From a virus, in the IMG/VR virus record IMGVR_UViG_3300044632_001684, positions 1-25,074 of that record: DNA of 25,074 bases; one strand, 5' to 3'. Every line of letters begins with the position of its first letter. Positions within the stretch are counted from its first letter, which is position 1. The notes beneath the pieces were generated by a model. The model did not search any database and was not told where the DNA came from. It saw only the letters and a list, made by a program, of their open reading frames with translations. Position numbers and translations under genes: made by a program. Below, piece after piece: positions 8,298-21,168 of this stretch.

Positions 8298-9158
8298 TTA
8301 ATAATTACCTGGAGCCACCTGAAATACAGTTAAGCCCATTTCTCTGAGATGATCTACTACTTGCTGCCTATCGTCAAGAGCAAATTCAATGTAATAGTTA
8401 GGAAGAATCTCATGCCTAAGAATTTCTTCTTTAACCAAGCTGTCTTTGCGGTTGTCTCCAGTAGGACGCATATATAGCATGTACCACGGAGCAAACACAT
8501 CAACGTTACAGACTTCTTTAAGCCATTTATCTGTTTGCGGTCTGAAAGAGTCTTCTCTCCCTGTAAGGAAGATTAACCTATAGCCAAACTGACTTAGTGC
8601 TTTTATAGCATTAAGCACAGGCGGATTAGGTTTATCGGTATCGCACCGCTCAATATCAAATGCAGCTCTATTGTGTATGGCTAATGTACCATCTAGATCT
8701 ACCAGGATAGCTTTTGTTTTACCTGGCGTCTGTACCACCTTTTCTTTCTTTGGTAGTACATACTTTTCGTACATATCAATGATGACTTTATCTGGTACGC
8801 TGCTATCTCTCTTTCTGTTTCTCTCAAGACATACATCAAGAGGAACATCGAAGTCTTTTACCTCAAATTCTGCATTCCAATCCTCAGCGATTTCCTGGAT
8901 AGTGGTTACATGTTTTGCGGCAAAGTTCGTATCATCAACGATAACATCATAATTATGATTAATTGCCGATATGATGATACTGTCGCGAATATCTAGTACT
9001 AGCTCTTCGTTTTCTTGACTCCACTGACTGTTATGGAGCATTGCACGCAAATCATCTTTGTTTACCCTAGAGGTTTTAGGGTTCCTACTAATGTAATCTT
9101 TGGCCCATGTGCTTTTACCTGAGGCCGGCAGACCTCTCAATACAATAATTTTACTCAT
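8298..9158 (-). CDS. pseT: Polynucleotide 5'-kinase / 3'-phosphatase (T4 Pnkp type)
   Basis: A 286-residue two-domain nucleic-acid end-healing enzyme. The N-terminal kinase has a P-loop GLPASGKST (residues 9-17), NKDDLR (33-38) and VDDTN (74-78). The C-terminal phosphatase has the DxDGT acid-phosphatase motif (Asp154, Asp156) and FLTGRED (197-203). Length and domain order match T4 polynucleotide kinase, which adds 5' phosphate and removes 3' or 2',3'-cyclic phosphate before ligation. It overlaps the DNA ligase gene by ATGA and follows the metallophosphatase, forming an end-processing and ligation operon. With the RNA ligase at 14059 it could repair tRNAs cut by host anticodon nucleases. Confidence 0.92.
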   Translation of the reverse strand: MSKIIVLRGLPASGKSTWAKDYISRNPKTSRVNKDDLRAMLHNSQWSQENEELVLDIRDSIIISAINHNYDVIVDDTNFAAKHVTTIQEIAEDWNAEFEVKDFDVPLDVCLERNRKRDSSVPDKVIIDMYEKYVLPKKEKVVQTPGKTKAILVDLDGTLAIHNRAAFDIERCDTDKPNPPVLNAIKALSQFGYRLIFLTGREDSFRPQTDKWLKEVCNVDVFAPWYMLYMRPTGDNRKDSLVKEEILRHEILPNYYIEFALDDRQQVVDHLREMGLTVFQVAPGNY

Positions 9159-11238: not shown

Positions 11239-11687
11239 TGTTTTACGTTGTTTGTGTTTGGAAACCATTCACTGAAATTATTGATGGCAGCTCTGAATAT
11301 GTGTGGAATAGCGCACAAATGTTCCCATGTCTTGTGCACTTCAGGGCTATCTGACATATCATGCAATGGACACTGCGTCCGTTGCGTAAAAATCCCTCCA
11401 AATTTATTTAATTCTAAATACGCTAACTGGCTCCAATAACAGGTTTCTTTGGGTGGAGCATCTTGCACATACCTGTATTTCTGGTATCTTACTTTAGTAG
11501 AGTCCAGTATTTGCATATTTGCTCTCCAATACTTTTTATCTTCGTGCACAGGGTCTATGAAGCACACCAGCTGTCCTTCTTGAGCACTCCAAAATTCGCG
11601 GGTAAGCTCATGGGGTTCACAGTTAAGCCTGTTAGTCATACTAAGCTTTCTGGTGCATCCTTTATTTTTAAAATAGATTTTAAACAT
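11235..11687 (-). CDS. Unrecognised Cys/His-rich protein (150 aa)
   Basis: A 150-residue protein, overlapping the end of the sigma-factor gene by 8 bases and coupled to the next gene by ATGA. It contains Cys at about 11, 23, 42, 83, 106 and 124 with several His and Trp residues, and a segment QCPLHDM that could contribute to a metal site, but the spacing fits no familiar zinc finger. It is soluble, with many aromatic residues. Because it directly follows the sigma factor, an anti-sigma or polymerase-associated role is conceivable, but nothing in the sequence proves it. Confidence 0.55.
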   Translation of the reverse strand: MFKIYFKNKGCTRKLSMTNRLNCEPHELTREFWSAQEGQLVCFIDPVHEDKKYWRANMQILDSTKVRYQKYRYVQDAPPKETCYWSQLAYLELNKFGGIFTQRTQCPLHDMSDSPEVHKTWEHLCAIPHIFRAAINNFSEWFPNTNNVKQ

Positions 11688-12324
11688 TTTTTAATTTTTT
11701 CTTAAGTTGTTCTTTTCCTTTGTGGATTAGAAAAGTAATACGATTAGAGTTGCTGTTAAGTTTTATTGCCGCATGTCTAGGTTTTAATCCATTAAAATAC
11801 ACCGCAAGCATGGCCTCCTTTTGTTTAGGAGGCATGTTTTCTATGATTCCTCTTAGTTTTTTAATTAACTGATTTAGCTCTGCTTGATAGGTTGGAGTAT
11901 CCATATCGCAACTACCTGCAACTATTTCTAGATTGGTAAGATTACCCAAAGGGTCACTATCATGCTCGCTCAAGTCGCTCAACGTAAAAGAATCACGATA
12001 GTTTGTACGTTTATTTTTTTTCTCTAGATCTTTAAGCTGTAATTTGTCTCCTTCAATCAACAGGAAATTACGTGCAGGGTTAGTGGTCATAAATCTTACA
12101 TGATTTTTATAGCAGTTTTTGGCAATACTTAATAAGTATTTTTCCAGATAATCTAGATTGTCCCATGCGTCAAATTTTGATTTAAAAAAACGTATAAAAG
12201 TTTTTTGCGTCAAATCTTCTGCGTCTTGTACATGCCTGATTTTCTTTAGAATATACGCAAAAACAAGTTTATTATATTCAACGTAGGCTTTAGAAAATTC
12301 TTCTTTTTTATTCTCGTTTTTCAT
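11680..12324 (-). CDS. ECF-like RNA polymerase sigma factor
   Basis: A 214-residue sigma-70 family protein of the two-domain ECF layout. Region 2 is at about residues 8-50 (KLVFAYILKKI, then VQDAEDLTQKTFIRFFK, the typical AEDLxQxxFxxFF core); region 4 is at about 160-212, with a helix-turn-helix (NMPPKQKEAMLAVYFNGLK, then a recognition helix around SNSNRITFLIHKGKEQLKK). The linker of about 85 residues is longer than in most ECF proteins. It should bind host core polymerase and direct it to phage promoters. It overlaps the genes on both sides (17 and 8 bases). The shared element at 7114 and 13145 is a candidate target, unproven. Confidence 0.8.
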   Translation of the reverse strand: MKNENKKEEFSKAYVEYNKLVFAYILKKIRHVQDAEDLTQKTFIRFFKSKFDAWDNLDYLEKYLLSIAKNCYKNHVRFMTTNPARNFLLIEGDKLQLKDLEKKNKRTNYRDSFTLSDLSEHDSDPLGNLTNLEIVAGSCDMDTPTYQAELNQLIKKLRGIIENMPPKQKEAMLAVYFNGLKPRHAAIKLNSNSNRITFLIHKGKEQLKKKLKNV

Positions 12325-13398: not shown

Positions 13399-14058
13399 TT
13401 ATAGTTCAAATGCAGCTATTGTGTGCTCGAATGGGTTATCCTCAATATCCTTCACCAATGAAAGCATTTTTTCAGCAATCTCACATATCTCTTTTTGTGC
13501 GTCTGGGCTGTTCCTGAGCTTTTGGAAGTGCTGAAAGGATCTCCAATTAAACATAACATCAGATTCAATCTGGCTATTGTACAGTTTGAAGAACCTGGCA
13601 CTTTCTTTGGCTCTCTTGCGTCCATACACCTTTTCAAGATCCTTTATTGCTGCATGATAAAAGATGTTCATCTCTTGAGATTTATCATTAAGCAAATCTC
13701 CCCAAGTATCATATGGCTGCAACCCGTGCTGCACATCTATAGTAGTACTATAGAATTCCTTAGGAATATAGAACTTATCTTCTTTTAATTCTTTATATCT
13801 GGCTGACTCAGCGTTCAGTGAAACACCCACTCTATGCTTGAGCAGATGAATGTGACTTGCTATCTCGCAGTTTACCAGGAAGTGGAGACTGCTTTTCTCA
13901 AAAGGTGTATGGTGTCCTGCGTTAGCAAGATCCTTTAGCATCTTTGGAATTCTAGCTTTCTTTTCCTCTGATAGACTTCTACTCGTGCTAGTCCATGCGC
14001 TGCAGGCATGGAGCGTATCACTGCCATAATATCCAATTAATTCTACTGTATTTTTCAT
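13399..14058 (-). CDS. thyX: FAD-dependent thymidylate synthase ThyX
   Basis: A 219-residue flavin-dependent thymidylate synthase, which makes dTMP from dUMP using FAD, NADPH and methylenetetrahydrofolate. Evidence: HHTPFEKSSLHFLV (49-62), the signature region KHRVGVSLNAESARY (74-88), and the C-terminal SARFFKLYNSQIESDVMFNW with a following HFQKLR segment typical of the family. The signature is a variant of RHRx7S: the first Arg is Lys and there is one extra residue between HR and the Ser. The gene abuts the RNA ligase gene (TAAATG). It supplies thymidine nucleotides for replication together with the dNMP kinase at 15763. Probably active, though the variant signature deserves a check. Confidence 0.92.
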   Translation of the reverse strand: MKNTVELIGYYGSDTLHACSAWTSTSRSLSEEKKARIPKMLKDLANAGHHTPFEKSSLHFLVNCEIASHIHLLKHRVGVSLNAESARYKELKEDKFYIPKEFYSTTIDVQHGLQPYDTWGDLLNDKSQEMNIFYHAAIKDLEKVYGRKRAKESARFFKLYNSQIESDVMFNWRSFQHFQKLRNSPDAQKEICEIAEKMLSLVKDIEDNPFEHTIAAFEL

Positions 14059-15078
14059 TTAACCTTTCTTCATGTCGTATGGTTGATTCATTACTTTTAA
14101 GCTCCACCAGGGCTTCTGTAATACTAATGACCTGACTGGTGATACAGGCCTGATAACAATACCTTCTGCATTAGTTCGGCCATGATCGTATTTTGCATTA
14201 TTTGCTATCTCTTGCAATTCTTCTAGAGTAGGAGAAGTTTCAGTAAATTTAAACACCGTCAGCTCTTCCACATGAGGAATTTGATTTTCTCTACAAAAGG
14301 TTTTTAATGTATCCCAGCTTAACCATTTATCGTGTTTAATATCCTTCATCAGGAAGGCGAAAAATGTAAGCTCAGTCAGCTTCATAGGATTACCTTGAAT
14401 TCCGGGACCGCAAACTTCTCCCTGCAACGCAGTATTATCACCAAATTTTAATAGCTTTTCATGCAAGCTATACTTTTTGGCTACCTGCCAGAAAGCATTC
14501 CCCTCTGTCTCTTTTAGCTCAAGGTTTCTAGAGCATACTCGAAACTCGCCGTTTTTAGCTATAAATGTGCCACTGCTACCGTCGCATTTAAGAGTAATAA
14601 CAAACTCTTGGTTTACAAGTGGAGATAGACGAGCTTCATTGAGGGCATTAGGCTCGGATCTAACATTAAATTCATCCGTTTTTGAGATAATGCCAGTTGG
14701 AAAATTACCTGCAGCATCTCCTGCTATAGAAGCTGCTGCAGGCGCAACCCATTTCTCAATACCTAATAGTTCGCTGACTTCATCTCCTTCATTAAAGCTA
14801 TTACCTACAACACTCATAGGTAGCAGGAGTCCTGCACTATACTGCCCTTTTAACTTAACAGTTTTTAACCTTACTTTATCATCACCCTGATACGCTCCAT
14901 CTAAAAATTTTTTAGGTACAAGAGTGTCAGGAAAAATCATTACAACAAGATCGCCTACACTGTGTAGATATTTTTGAGTAACTACTTTCCACCCCAAGAC
15001 TGTAGCTGTTTCAATTCTGTCTGCGCCTTCTATTGGAGCTAGTTCTAATACTCTGGCTACTACTGCGTATTTTTCCAT
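14059..15078 (-). CDS. RNA ligase, DraRnl/Rnl5-like, with N-terminal OB-type domain
   Basis: The ATG at 15078 (MEKYAVVARV) is chosen since the conserved domain starts there; an in-frame ATG at 15129 would overlap the upstream gene by 47 bases. The 339-residue protein has an N-terminal OB-fold-like domain (about 1-110, resembling the tRNA-binding domain fold) and a nucleotidyltransferase core: KCDGSSGT (Lys164 is the AMP acceptor), LQGEVCGPG, EGIVIR (305-310) and SLKVMN. This order, with the OB domain first, is that of the Deinococcus Rnl-type ligases, which seal 3'-OH/5'-phosphate nicks in RNA-containing duplexes. With the kinase-phosphatase it suggests RNA repair. Confidence 0.88.
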   Translation of the reverse strand: MEKYAVVARVLELAPIEGADRIETATVLGWKVVTQKYLHSVGDLVVMIFPDTLVPKKFLDGAYQGDDKVRLKTVKLKGQYSAGLLLPMSVVGNSFNEGDEVSELLGIEKWVAPAAASIAGDAAGNFPTGIISKTDEFNVRSEPNALNEARLSPLVNQEFVITLKCDGSSGTFIAKNGEFRVCSRNLELKETEGNAFWQVAKKYSLHEKLLKFGDNTALQGEVCGPGIQGNPMKLTELTFFAFLMKDIKHDKWLSWDTLKTFCRENQIPHVEELTVFKFTETSPTLEELQEIANNAKYDHGRTNAEGIVIRPVSPVRSLVLQKPWWSLKVMNQPYDMKKG

Positions 15079-15082
15079 AATC

Positions 15083-15499
15083 TTATTTATTGTAGTTTTC
15101 GTCATTATGATCCCAACAGAATACAACATTATCGTATCCTCCTAGTTCATCTTGCAGATTATGACTAATCACTCTTTCCCATATCCAATACCTGTTAGCT
15201 AATCCAGCCCCCAATTTTGAGATGTAAAATTTATGTGTAGGATTGTTTTTAATATGTGCAGATAATTGATCTAACTGATCGAAAAAAGGTTTAGCATATT
15301 CTTCGGGTGTAAAACATGCACCCTGATTATTTGTAGGCTCTTTTTTAGTTACAAACCCTATAGCTCTAGGATGATTGCGAAGTTTTGCTGCACCACCCAA
15401 ACCTATTCTTTGTGCATTATCTCCATAAACAAAAAATGCGTTAGGTTCGTTATTTAATATTTCTTCAGTTACAATAATGCTTTTATACGTAGCAGGCAT
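15083..15499 (-). CDS. Conserved phage protein with GDN and GGAA motifs, macro-like
   Basis: A 138-residue protein containing FVYGDNAQRIGLGGAAKLRNHP (residues about 23-44), IGFVTKKEPTNN, FYISKLGAGLAN and a C-terminal VVFCWD. This set of motifs marks a family often found in phages and bacteria; the glycine-rich loops and the GDN-GGAA arrangement suggest nucleotide or ADP-ribose binding as in macro or DprA/LOG-like folds, which is inference. Catalytic role unknown. It lies 4 bases before the RNA ligase start, so a link with NAD or ADP-ribose chemistry or RNA repair is conceivable. Confidence 0.65.
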   Translation of the reverse strand: MPATYKSIIVTEEILNNEPNAFFVYGDNAQRIGLGGAAKLRNHPRAIGFVTKKEPTNNQGACFTPEEYAKPFFDQLDQLSAHIKNNPTHKFYISKLGAGLANRYWIWERVISHNLQDELGGYDNVVFCWDHNDENYNK

Positions 15500-16769: not shown

Positions 16770-16844
16770 TGGCTCCAAGACCTGGACTCGAACCAGGAAC
16801 CGTTCGGTTAACAGCCGAATGCTCTACCATTGAGCTATCTTGGA
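16770..16844 (-). tRNA. tRNA-Asn (GTT), CCA encoded
   Basis: Acceptor TCCAAGA/TCTTGGA, D arm with AATGGTA loop, anticodon stem TTCGG/CCGAA around loop CTGTTAA (anticodon at 16810-16812 on the plus strand), T arm CCTGG-TTCGAGT-CCAGG, discriminator G and an encoded CCA. All arms form. It reads AAC/AAT codons, which are frequent in this phage. Usual class I shape. Confidence 0.95.
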
Positions 16845-16853
16845 ATAAAAGTG

Positions 16854-16935
16854 AGCCTCGAGTGGGAATCGAACCCACAGTAGCTTTCGCTGCTGGTTTA
16901 CAAAACCAGTCCTTTACCATTCAGGGCATCGAGGC
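16854..16935 (-). tRNA. tRNA-Thr (TGT) with long variable arm
   Basis: Acceptor GCCTCGA/TCGAGGC, anticodon stem CTGGT/ACCAG around loop TTTGTAA (anticodon TGT), T arm GTGGG-TTCGATT-CCCAC, discriminator T, no encoded CCA. The variable region is 14 bases with an AGC-GAAA-GCT hairpin, a class II feature normally confined to Leu, Ser and Tyr tRNAs. The D stem has one C-A mismatch. The register gives Thr; aminoacylation identity is therefore uncertain. Confidence 0.8.
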
Positions 16936-16945
16936 ATTTAAAGTG

Positions 16946-17027
16946 TGGGCAGTGATGGACTCGAACCATCGGTCTCCGAAGAGGGGAGATTTACAGTCTC
17001 CTGCAATAGCCGCTATGCGAACTACCC
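16946..17027 (-). tRNA. tRNA-Tyr (GTA), class II
   Basis: Acceptor GGGTAGT/ACTGCCC with one T-G pair, D stem GCA/TGC, anticodon stem GGAGA/TCTCC around CTGTAAA (anticodon GTA), a long variable arm with CTC-TTCG-GAG, T arm GATGG-TTCGAGT-CCATC, discriminator A, no encoded CCA. This is the normal bacterial class II Tyr shape. Nine bases separate it from the Thr gene on the same strand. Confidence 0.93.
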
Positions 17028-17030
17028 ATT

Positions 17031-17134
17031 AAAATTATCTAGTACTCTCCCAGTGTCACACCACTTCCCAACTGTGGCCATAAGGTGGACCCTCAATCAG
17101 ACCTAGGCGGCATGGAGCCACCGGCAGGTGTCGC
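17031..17134 (-). ncRNA. Structured RNA element, copy B (between tRNA-fMet-like and tRNA-Tyr)
   Basis: No gene or tRNA fits here. The element shares two blocks with copy A: a 36-base left block (17031-17066) and a right block (17123-17134). In minus-strand RNA, ACACC (17127-17131) pairs with GGTGT (17058-17062); in copy A the last pair is A-T instead of C-G, a compensating change. Inside lies a strong hairpin, GGTGGC/GCCGCC with loop TCCAT. The element ends with an ACACTGGGAGAG tail and CTAGA a few bases before tRNA-Tyr. No known RNA family was recognised. Confidence 0.7.
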
Positions 17135-17154
17135 TCTCCAATTGGAGGAGAAAT

Positions 17155-17228
17155 TGGTTGCGGGACCAGGAATCGAACCTGGGACTGGAGCTTATGAGAC
17201 TCCTATTTTACCACTTCACTATCCCGCG
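17155..17228 (-). tRNA. tRNA-Met (CAT), initiator-like end
   Basis: Acceptor CGCGGGA/TCCCGCA forms six pairs with positions 1 and 72 left as C and A, the mismatch that marks bacterial initiator tRNA for formylation. Anticodon stem GGAGT/GCTCC encloses CTCATAA (anticodon CAT); T arm CCAGG-TTCGATT-CCTGG; discriminator A; CCA encoded. The initiator's three G-C pairs in the anticodon stem are not present, and the D stem is weak. Elongator Met or Ile2 (lysidine) are alternatives, but neither normally has C1xA72. Confidence 0.85.
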
Positions 17229-17246
17229 ATTAAATGTTAAAGATCG

Positions 17247-17338
17247 AAAATTGTCTAGTCTCTCCCAGTGTCACACAACTTAGTCGACCGAATATTCCGG
17301 TCCAAACACCCCGCTATACGCAGTGTGGCATGTGTCGC
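17247..17338 (-). ncRNA. Structured RNA element, copy A (upstream of the fMet-like tRNA)
   Basis: Shares the 35-base left block (17247-17281) and right block (17327-17338) with copy B. In minus-strand RNA ACACA (17331-17335) pairs with TGTGT (17273-17277). Between lie two hairpins: ACACTGC/GCGGGGTGT with loop GTATA and a two-base bulge, and GACCG/CGGTC with loop GAATATT. The inner sequence differs from copy B while the flanks and the helix are kept. The element ends about 20 bases before the fMet-like tRNA. Confidence 0.7.
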
Positions 17339-17406
17339 AATCTCAGCAGGATTTACAGGCTGCTACATTCCAATTACAGCCCAACCTACTACCATTGGGT
17401 TCGTGG
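17339..17406 (-). other. Non-coding stretch with small inverted repeats, unexplained
   Basis: Between the 17407 gene and copy A. It can form CCCAA/TTGGG (17380-17384 with 17395-17399) and AGCAG/CTGCT (17345-17349 with 17360-17364); a third pairing, GCTG/CAGC, competes. It contains AATGGTA, like local tRNA D loops, and CTGTAAA, like the Tyr anticodon loop, but no full cloverleaf or T arm. It could be a decayed tRNA. Confidence 0.3.
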
Positions 17407-17649
17407 TTACTGAGAAATATTATTTTTCTCCACTAAAAAAGAATATAACTCCTCTGCTCTATTTATGATTTCTTCAGTTGTGGGATACCCGTCTCTAATG
17501 AAATCGAACTGCGCTTCAAATAGTGACGCTTTATTATTTTCGTCTGCGCTAAGACGAAAAGTATCCATAACCTGATGAAATCTATGTGTTAGATCTTCCC
17601 TGGCCATAGCTAAAACATCTAATTTAATTTCTTGTGTAGTTTTATTCAT
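17407..17649 (-). CDS. Small unrecognised protein (80 aa)
   Basis: An 80-residue soluble, largely helical protein (KLDVLAMAREDLTHRFHQVMDT, then FDFIRDGYPTTEEIINRAEELYSFL). The YPTTEEIINRAEELY end resembles short helical phage proteins of unknown role. Nothing catalytic is visible. It is the last gene before the tRNA cluster on the minus strand, and its transcript probably continues into the RNA elements and tRNAs. It begins 10 bases after the stop of the next-upstream gene. Confidence 0.6.
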   Translation of the reverse strand: MNKTTQEIKLDVLAMAREDLTHRFHQVMDTFRLSADENNKASLFEAQFDFIRDGYPTTEEIINRAEELYSFLVEKNNISQ

Positions 17650-19499: not shown

Positions 19500-19973
19500 T
19501 TACAAACTTAACCGATTTAAATCTCGGGTATTGAGTTTAGATAACGCTGTAGCAATCCCCACATTATAACAAAAGGGATCTTTTTTCGAGCATTCGCTGG
19601 ATAGACAGATATACTCCTGGTCTTTCATATGTATCGTAATATGTGTAAACCCACCCTTAGGCTGCAGCTTGTAGTGCGGGCTATGTCTAAAGGTAGAGGG
19701 CACAACAAGCTCTCTTACACCCCTATGCAACCCCATAAAAAAAGCATTAGGAATATATAGTGCATATCGGAGATGTCTTATTCTAACCTTAAACCCAGCG
19801 GATGTCAGTTTATCTATTGTGACGCCATTACTGCTTACTGTGTGAGTTTTACGTGAAAGCCTTTCCTTGTATGGCCAAGACCATGACTTTCCTGTAATTT
19901 TATCAGTTTTCACAAAGCAATTAGTTTGCTCGTCAAATACTGTATTGTACCACGCGATTTCTTTTTTACTCAT
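19500..19973 (-). CDS. Unrecognised protein coupled to the recombinase (157 aa)
   Basis: A 157-residue basic protein that overlaps the recombinase end by 8 bases. It is rich in Lys, Arg, His and aromatic residues, with segments KVRIRHLRYALYIP and GGFTHITIHMKDQEYICLSSECSKKDPFCYN carrying three Cys near residues 122-134. It looks like a mixed beta-rich domain, possibly with a metal site, but the Cys spacing matches no known finger. A nucleic-acid-binding accessory of the recombinase is plausible from context and charge only. Confidence 0.55.
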   Translation of the reverse strand: MSKKEIAWYNTVFDEQTNCFVKTDKITGKSWSWPYKERLSRKTHTVSSNGVTIDKLTSAGFKVRIRHLRYALYIPNAFFMGLHRGVRELVVPSTFRHSPHYKLQPKGGFTHITIHMKDQEYICLSSECSKKDPFCYNVGIATALSKLNTRDLNRLSL

Positions 19974-21168
19974 AATCTGTAACCAACGGTTCGACTTCTA
20001 ATTCACTTACACGTTTACGCCTAGTTTTGTTTACTTTTTCAATTTCCATCTCAAGCTGAGGATCTGGCATATCGGGAATACCAAAGGCCTTACGGATTAT
20101 CTCTTTGGCCTCGCTGCTGTTTTTGATCACAAACCCTAGATCTTGCTCACGAAATTTCTTTTCCGTGTCAATATTGAGTATCTGCTGTTCTCCCTCGATA
20201 TCTAGTGTGAACGGCACTTCAGGAGTTTTCCATGTATACCAACCACCAGTCTTCCCTACTAGCGCAGGATAATGCTCGCCAAGTAGGCGCACAAGAGGAG
20301 AATACCAATCAATGCCCCCATTGATATGGATGTCAAACTCGATCTTCTGGCTATTACCCTCACGGCCAAGCTTGTTTCGCTTGACTGTAAGTGTATGAGT
20401 AGAGCCTGCCTTGCGCTTTACTCCCATGTGATCTTCTTCGAGGTTATCTTTGATGCGGGCCACCTTGAACTGGTAGGTAGAATTGAAGCGTTGAGCTTCA
20501 CCGCCAATTAATGCTTCGGGCTTCTCAGTACCAAAGCCTGCCATACCTCCAATTTGCTCTTTGAGCTGATTGGTAGCAACAAACACCATGTTCTCACACT
20601 CTAGATAAGGAATAATATTCCTATAGAATGCACTCATGAGTTTGGCGTGCTCGCCCACTTTTGTCTGACCAATAACATCCTGATCGCGCTCATAGTCAGT
20701 ACTAGCACCTGCAATACTGTCTAGAGCAATAAGGATAGGAGTCTTACCATCACTATGCTTGGCATAGTTCTGGATGATGATCTTACACAAGGTAAGAGCT
20801 TCCTCAAGACTCTTGGGATTATGATAAATCACATGCTTTGGATCTACTCCCTGCAACTCCATATATCTGAAGTCCGGGGCGTTCTCGGTCTCAATCCAGA
20901 ACATCTTTCCTCCAGCCTTCTGGAATACTTTAGCCAGGTCGAACAATAGCGTTGTCTTGGAACAACCTTTCTTGCCATAGAGCAGATAGCACCGACCGTA
21001 GGCCATAAACCTACGGTCGAATGCGTACTCTAGTAGAGGGTTATCCAACACAATGCCTGTAGGCGGCAATTCCTTGTCCGCCGTATTCAATTCAAGATTA
21101 ACAGCTTCAGACTTGAATGTCTTACCGAAGTTTTTTTTGATTGAGTTTAGGTATGTGTCTATATCCAT
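19966..21168 (-). CDS. RecA/UvsX-like recombinase
   Basis: A 400-residue RecA-family ATPase. Walker A is GKKGCSKTT at 65-73, Walker B is PILIALDS at about 143-150, and MVFVATNQLKEQ with GGEAQRF and the following basic segment match the L1/L2 DNA-binding region of recombinases. Length is close to T4 UvsX. It would coat single-stranded DNA and drive strand exchange, with the binding protein encoded just upstream. The C-terminus is charged (EIEKVNKTRRKRVSELEVEP). The N-terminal 35 residues are short relative to RecA. Confidence 0.9.
   Translation of the reverse strand: MDIDTYLNSIKKNFGKTFKSEAVNLELNTADKELPPTGIVLDNPLLEYAFDRRFMAYGRCYLLYGKKGCSKTTLLFDLAKVFQKAGGKMFWIETENAPDFRYMELQGVDPKHVIYHNPKSLEEALTLCKIIIQNYAKHSDGKTPILIALDSIAGASTDYERDQDVIGQTKVGEHAKLMSAFYRNIIPYLECENMVFVATNQLKEQIGGMAGFGTEKPEALIGGEAQRFNSTYQFKVARIKDNLEEDHMGVKRKAGSTHTLTVKRNKLGREGNSQKIEFDIHINGGIDWYSPLVRLLGEHYPALVGKTGGWYTWKTPEVPFTLDIEGEQQILNIDTEKKFREQDLGFVIKNSSEAKEIIRKAFGIPDMPDPQLEMEIEKVNKTRRKRVSELEVEPLVTDYE

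Follow-up and report, generated by a model that had tools for sequence, protein, structure and literature searches.

A widespread family of covarying RNA elements in phage genomes, found near tRNA, tmRNA and protein-coding genes

Two related elements in a phage tRNA cluster

A 25-kb phage fragment from IMG/VR (record IMGVR_UViG_3300044632_001684, positions 1 to 25,074; this whole 25,074-nt stretch is called the window) carries a minus-strand cluster of tRNA-Met, tRNA-Tyr, tRNA-Thr and tRNA-Asn, in which two similar sequences, copy A and copy B, lie among the tRNAs. Do they represent a structured RNA of an undescribed kind, and what could such an RNA do? The initial annotation had proposed a structured RNA from two shared blocks and a single compensating base change, and each of these observations was borne out. 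The 12-base block occupies 17123-17134 in copy B and 17327-17338 in copy A, as read from the sequence, and the long block 17031-17066 and 17247-17281, respectively, with a 92% match in a self-BLAST. The compensated pair is real, with C at 17062 opposite G at 17127 and A at 17277 opposite T at 17331, and the single indel corresponds to an additional base in the terminal loop of copy B (GAGAGUA, as compared with GAGAGA in copy A and in the family at large). A minus-strand tRNA does follow each copy, tRNA-Tyr 11 nt after copy B and tRNA-Met 26 nt after copy A.

Read along the minus strand, the locus is composed of a structured module designated M2, copy A, tRNA-Met, a CUCCAAUUGGAG hairpin, copy B, tRNA-Tyr, tRNA-Thr and tRNA-Asn (Table 1). 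Minus-strand genes elsewhere in the window (8298-9158, 14059-15129, 11680-12324, 13399-14058 and 19966-21168) correspond to polynucleotide kinase, RNA ligase, a sigma-70-like factor, a ThyX-type thymidylate synthase and a UvsX-like recombinase, a T4-like gene set.

Table 1. Components of the two elements and their neighbours in the window (R2, core model; its E-values are rough)
Feature	Position	Strand	Basis
Module M2, structured, directly 5′ of copy A	17341..17415	-	closing-stem covariation
Copy A	17255..17338	-	sequence; R2 24.8 bits, E 1.2e-4
Copy A P1 5′ strand, ACACA	17331..17335	-	partner 17273-17277
Copy A optional interior hairpin P2b, GACCG/CGGUC	17286..17302	-	fold prediction, relatives
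Copy A P1 3′ strand, UGUGU, then GAC (17272-17270) and unpaired A (17269)	17273..17277	-	
Copy A hairpin P3, CUGG/GAGAGA/CUAG	17255..17268	-	sequence
Copy A tail, ACAAUUUU, G-poor as after P3 family-wide	17247..17254	-	sequence
tRNA-Met, 3′ of copy A	17155..17228	-	
Palindromic CUCC-AAUU-GGAG hairpin, immediately 5′ of copy B	17136..17147	-	precedes other copies too
Copy B, GCG of 5′ strand through end of P3	17039..17134	-	sequence; R2 22.5 bits, E 4.5e-4
Copy B P1 5′ strand, ACACC	17127..17131	-	partner 17058-17062; covariation in relatives
Copy B optional interior hairpin P2a, GGUGGC UCCAU GCCGCC	17106..17122	-	fold prediction, relatives
Copy B P1 3′ strand, GGUGU, then GAC (17057-17055) and lone unpaired A (17054)	17058..17062	-	
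Copy B hairpin P3, CUGG/GAGAGUA/CUAG	17039..17053	-	sequence; P3 covariation in relatives
Copy B tail, AUAAUUUU	17031..17038	-	sequence
tRNA-Tyr, 3′ of copy B	16945..17027	-	
tRNA-Thr, after tRNA-Tyr	16853-16935	-	
tRNA-Asn, after tRNA-Thr	16770-16844	-	

Covariation in relatives

Two copies make a weak case, since neither has a single-copy folding energy better than that of its shuffles and a lone compensatory change between them is slender evidence. The matter was settled by covariation, which confirmed compensation in hundreds of relatives. We assembled 124 non-redundant window-type elements without selecting for pair 5 of helix P1, the pair formed by 17062 and 17127 in copy B, or for the 3′ strand of hairpin P3. 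Pair 5 was C-G in 110 of them, A-T in 11 and the mismatch A-G in 3 (among the matches listed), so that the two positions do not show the independent variation that the initial annotation had named as evidence against its proposal. Pairs 2, 3 and 4 of P3 were Watson-Crick in 96, 98 and 92 of the 124 elements, the corresponding shuffled means being 32, 47 and 40.

A third IMG/VR scan specified only the second hairpin, leaving the 5′ side free, and its listed matches are a lower bound. In 64 of the 92 non-redundant elements picked by the hairpin alone (among the matches listed), a complementary A-AC-nnn was present upstream, while random assignment of nnn yielded a partner in 16.9 ± 3.1 of the 92, with a maximum of 26 in 1000 shuffles. 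A slightly larger set contains 29 different nnn combinations (among the matches listed). On an alignment of 29 sequences, the structure left no cell unpaired (100% paired) and scored 0.496 for covariation, versus 0.156 ± 0.022 after shuffling and at most 0.09 for slid structures; the aligned elements had been chosen for pairing, so that this result serves as confirmation only. In addition, copy-A-like RNAs linked to M2 hold both C-G and A-U (for example, L015, L023, L040 and L047 versus the rest), indicating that the switch does not simply follow one lineage.

Architecture of the family

The common core reads 5′-(CG or GA)AC-nnn ... n′n′n′-GUGAC-A-[stem]GAGAGA[stem]. P1 comprises 5 bp, with AC-nnn pairing with n′n′n′-GU, and is bordered by GA or CG at one end and by GA(C) at the other; P3 is a stem of 3-5 bp closed by the GAGAGA loop. 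The linker between them is one nucleotide long in most of 253 elements, and is A in 187 of the 253 (among the matches listed). P1 occurs in two contexts: the window type, CGACAC...GUGUGAC enclosing UGC and AGU, and GAAC...GUGAC, in which nnn is free. The first pair of P1 may not be a plain Watson-Crick pair, as it is occasionally A with C (GGTGCGAC with ACACC) and was never seen as G-C.

The interior ranges from a few nucleotides to about 85 nt and contains none to two hairpins; the core of P2a, GGCUCCAUGCC, was found again in many relatives, and P2b is kept in relatives with altered pairs. The tail after P3 is G-poor and AU-rich, and only weakly conserved. The essential structure is P1 plus P3, with an optional interior. 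A helix preserved around a diverging interior, as the initial annotation had it, holds true for P1, but the annotation did not name the second essential hairpin, P3, which covaries as well; the earlier observation is correct but understated. P1, GAC, one nucleotide and P3 with its GAGAGA loop are found together and with covariation, defining the core of a new family, and both window copies match core model R2 even though they were outside its training set.

Distribution

The 17-mer GTGTGACACTGGGAGAG matched 47 stretches in IMG/VR, and degenerate patterns (the 5′ block plus GTGTGAC plus GGAGAG) gave at least 120 matches in each of two scans; altogether, the IMG/VR pattern scans yielded at least 253 non-redundant elements. 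These element counts are lower bounds, and the samples are not random. Across bacterial and archaeal genomes totalling 257 Gb, scanned for the window type, the strict pattern occurred in one place, a metagenome-assembled genome, and an R2 search found nothing in 39 other genomes of its phylum. In these collections, the window type is thus confined almost entirely to viruses. A search of the E. coli genome with one enterobacterial-type copy found nothing.

Several isolated phages are carriers: Gordonia phages Sisko, Sour, Evaa and relatives, Pseudomonas phage Itty13, Stenotrophomonas phage SOVA965, Morganella phage IME1369_02 and Providencia phage PSTRCR_117lys, to which Synechococcus phages S-SRP01 and DSL-LC07 can probably be added as bearers of an AUGAC variant. 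Thus, phages of several bacterial phyla carry the element, without a linked protein gene. BLAST of the window copies against isolated phages gave no true match, and multi-hairpin queries did better; a match in a Cronobacter phage (H29) lacked the core on inspection and was attributed to chance. No description of the motif was found in the literature searched, which largely excluded subscription journals and preprints.

Comparison with known RNAs

The Rfam 15 cmscan of the window, 12 relatives and 18 more sequences matched nothing but tRNA at or near the elements, the remaining matches, a group I intron and an sRNA, being located elsewhere in their contigs. At E up to 10, the scan of the window region gave nothing relevant, and none of the Rfam ribozymes hammerhead, HDV-like, twister, pistol and hatchet matched the element. 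The suggestion that the RNA is undescribed thus withstood comparison with Rfam, and we regard it as practically certain that this apparently new, widespread family of phage structured RNA is real. What is new is the RNA family; the mechanism may be of a known kind.

The tRNA cluster of phage T4 also contains non-coding RNAs, the stable rnaC and rnaD, which were rejected as relatives: they have no GAGAGA hairpin or core, and R2 finds nothing in the T4 cluster. GOLLD and ROOL are structured phage-linked RNAs, often located near tRNA genes, but they are several hundred nucleotides in length and belong to Rfam, where the scans gave no match to either of them. T7 and some other phages process their transcripts at RNase III sites, which in T7-like phages are, like the element, intergenic structures upstream of genes; those, however, are long imperfect hairpins with no conserved primary sequence, while the element has a fixed loop and junction. 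Three further resemblances were dropped: that of GAGAGACUAGA to the R-element of group I introns, since the hairpin stem varies freely; a CsrA decoy, as GGA straddles the loop edge and, to our knowledge, Gordonia has no CsrA; and GGAG as a ribosome-binding site, given that tRNAs also follow and that start codons, where present, are too distant.

Theta ribozymes are HDV-like, small phage RNAs situated beside tRNA genes (PMC10879173), and the element shares with them a small conserved core, freely varying helices, optional inserts and a phage, near-tRNA setting. It may accordingly be asked whether it is a candidate new small self-cleaving ribozyme, cutting at or near the single unpaired nucleotide that joins P1 to P3, or else at the element edge, and thereby trimming transcripts; the polynucleotide kinase and RNA ligase of the window phage could handle the ends so produced. 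We consider this rather unlikely. Unlike theta ribozymes, the core has no visible HDV-like double pseudoknot and no Rfam ribozyme match, and most copies lie away from tRNAs; moreover, no conserved position allows a cut to be assigned confidently, and the core tolerates change, as its two P1 contexts (CG or GA) and the A-C first pairs of some members show.

The put sites of phage HK022 (putL and putR) provide a different parallel: they are about 70 nt long, consist of two adjacent stem-loops and act in cis without a dedicated phage protein (PMC9378689), suppressing termination via the zinc-binding domain of the RNA polymerase beta-prime subunit. The element has the same gross plan, of about 70 nt and two adjacent stem-loops, and, by analogy, its nascent RNA could bind RNA polymerase to allow read-through of pauses and Rho-dependent sites, which would be useful before the untranslated tRNA and tmRNA stretches that it precedes; its occurrence in phages of several phyla with no linked protein gene also fits. 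Direct kinship with put was rejected: HK022 24000-40751, in a record with the put sites unannotated, lacks the core pattern, and its best R2 match has a rough E of 0.16. Furthermore, put is located near early promoters, while the element occurs in tandem, where repeats would be redundant for antitermination, and near tRNAs and capsid genes, with many copies in mid-operon by capsid and terminase genes; it is also found, unlike put, in phages of Actinobacteria and probably of cyanobacteria. No promoter could be identified close to the window copies, although the sigma-70 consensus need not apply to phage promoters. Overall, antitermination is an unlikely answer, if one to be taken seriously.

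Genomic context

The element commonly lies 5-15 nt upstream of a tRNA or tmRNA, or just before a start codon. tRNA or tmRNA genes are present within 1.5 kb of 46 of 215 clusters, on the same strand in all 46, and the 19 such genes that start within 25 nt downstream all begin 7-15 nt past the pattern match. Phage-borne tmRNA genes were seen 11-20 nt 3′ of the element in L032, L038, L045 and L047. An RNA of the tRNA cluster, as originally envisaged, describes both window copies, which do adjoin tRNAs, but not the family, which is also found beside capsid, terminase and replication genes and in the gaps between small genes in numerous phages. Flanking coding sequences are on the same strand in 179 cases and on the opposite strand in 36. 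In clusters with no adjacent tRNA, an ORF starts within 35 nt in 37%, versus 19% for random positions, a generous control in that it includes coding sequence; these figures derive from simple ORF calls rather than a gene finder.

Several short elements occupy the gap between genes, starting 8-10 nt past a stop codon and leaving 20-29 nt to the following ATG. Some follow capsid genes (at 10 nt in L188 and 71 nt in L332), and others precede terminase, HNH or capsid genes. Neighbouring genes vary widely in function, which counts against a gene-specific switch. Intrinsic terminators occur downstream in only 9 of 206 cases, indicating that the elements are embedded in longer transcripts.

Covariation alone cannot distinguish RNA from single-stranded DNA, and some copies are found near terminase genes or the genome end, as might be expected of a structured DNA signal for packaging, recombination or mobility. 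Such a role is nevertheless very improbable, in view of the invariable strand agreement with adjacent tRNAs, the G-U pairs present in both P1 and P3, and the scattering of positions over the genome.

Two observations concern the surroundings of individual copies. In Synechococcus podoviruses L352 and L353 (~2435-2470), the AUGAC-variant element is located 70-95 nt 5′ of the major capsid gene; before the element there is a hairpin whose loop, CACCUCAGAGUnGGA, is conserved and whose stem differs (CAGGG/CCCUG versus GGAGG/CCUCC). Gordonia, Pseudomonas and Stenotrophomonas phages contain tRNA-like T-arm and acceptor pieces in long unannotated non-coding stretches (L230 2329-2377, L231, L233 2430-3335 and L351 2440-3366), with one weak mascRNA-like score, below threshold.

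Tandem arrays and associated modules

Most genomes contain one or a few copies. Among the matches listed, 164 of 215 non-redundant clusters are single, and 51 have two to five cores, which carry unrelated interiors; some neighbours in an array are separated by just one nucleotide (L091). In ~40-kb phages (L091, L075, L060 and L164), arrays begin some 10 nt past the stop codon of a gene whose product ends in ...FDYNAA or ...FNYNAA, a putative capsid gene judging by position and sequence.

Directly 5′ of the core, we found several partners. M2 is represented by 19 distinct copies, each with a family element 1-5 nt downstream, and its closing stem covaries (UUCUUAGC/GCUAAGAA, UUUGGGU/GCCCAAA, UUUCGAGU/GCUCGAAA and UUCUCAGU/GCUGAGAA, with UCUCAGU/GCUGAGA at copy A). 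It has no Rfam match, and resembles a tRNA anticodon arm (CUGUAAAUCCUG). Other partners include a GACG-loop hairpin with a changing stem and the hairpin that precedes copy B. In L241, L283, L296, L301 and L309, a helix upstream of P1 appears to pair with the segment preceding the P1 3′ strand, and may thus form a pseudoknot; the putative pairings, about 60 nt before the hairpin, reach across the P1 5′ strand (AGCCGUC/GACGGCU, CGCGUC/GACGCG or CCGGC/GCCGG).

Tandem arrays make it possible that the element is a trans-acting RNA, for instance one that serves as a decoy, its constant core titrating a host or defence factor and the arrays setting the copy number. Two to five cores with unrelated interiors and the joining of one core to differing 5′ modules would suit such a role. 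We find it quite unlikely, however, as most clusters are single, terminators seldom follow, and tight spacing to downstream genes is needless for an RNA acting in trans.

Possible function

The best explanation overall, which we put forward with more doubt than confidence, is that the new family serves as a generic cis-acting separator involved in transcript maturation or protection; we infer a domain that keeps segments of the phage transcript apart, or matures or protects them. The element would be part of a longer phage transcript, between the preceding gene and the following tRNA, tmRNA or ORF, and would present a folded block with single-stranded, AU-rich RNA behind it, in which a host or phage nuclease could cut. 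The cut would define the 5′ end of the downstream RNA, and the upstream RNA would be left with a stable 3′ end. Such nuclease cutting, as the particular mechanism of maturation and protection, is more tentative still. Maturation or protection is favoured by the 5′-side placement at tRNAs, tmRNAs and start codons, by the AU-rich tail, by the lack of gene specificity and by the scarcity of terminators. Against it, arrays of up to five copies exceed the need of a simple separator; with mostly one or a few copies per genome, the element is not a general operon separator; and the abutting tandem copies, together with the weak conservation of the tail, imply that tail cleavage would not apply to every element. 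Antitermination comes close behind the maturation and protection reading, as does a new ribozyme class. It is conceivable, although we would lean against it, that phages of Actinobacteria, Proteobacteria and probably cyanobacteria share an RNA-only device with a modular core and interchangeable 5′ and interior domains, either a new ribozyme class or an RNA that reprograms RNA polymerase on its own.

Conclusions

A strongly covarying RNA that Rfam lacks and that hundreds of phage contigs, as well as isolated phages, carry points to an unrecognized step in phage gene expression. With members in cultured phages of Gordonia, Pseudomonas, Stenotrophomonas, Morganella and probably Synechococcus, the family can be tested immediately, and it would account for non-coding sequence that is at present left unannotated near the tRNA clusters and capsid genes of phages.
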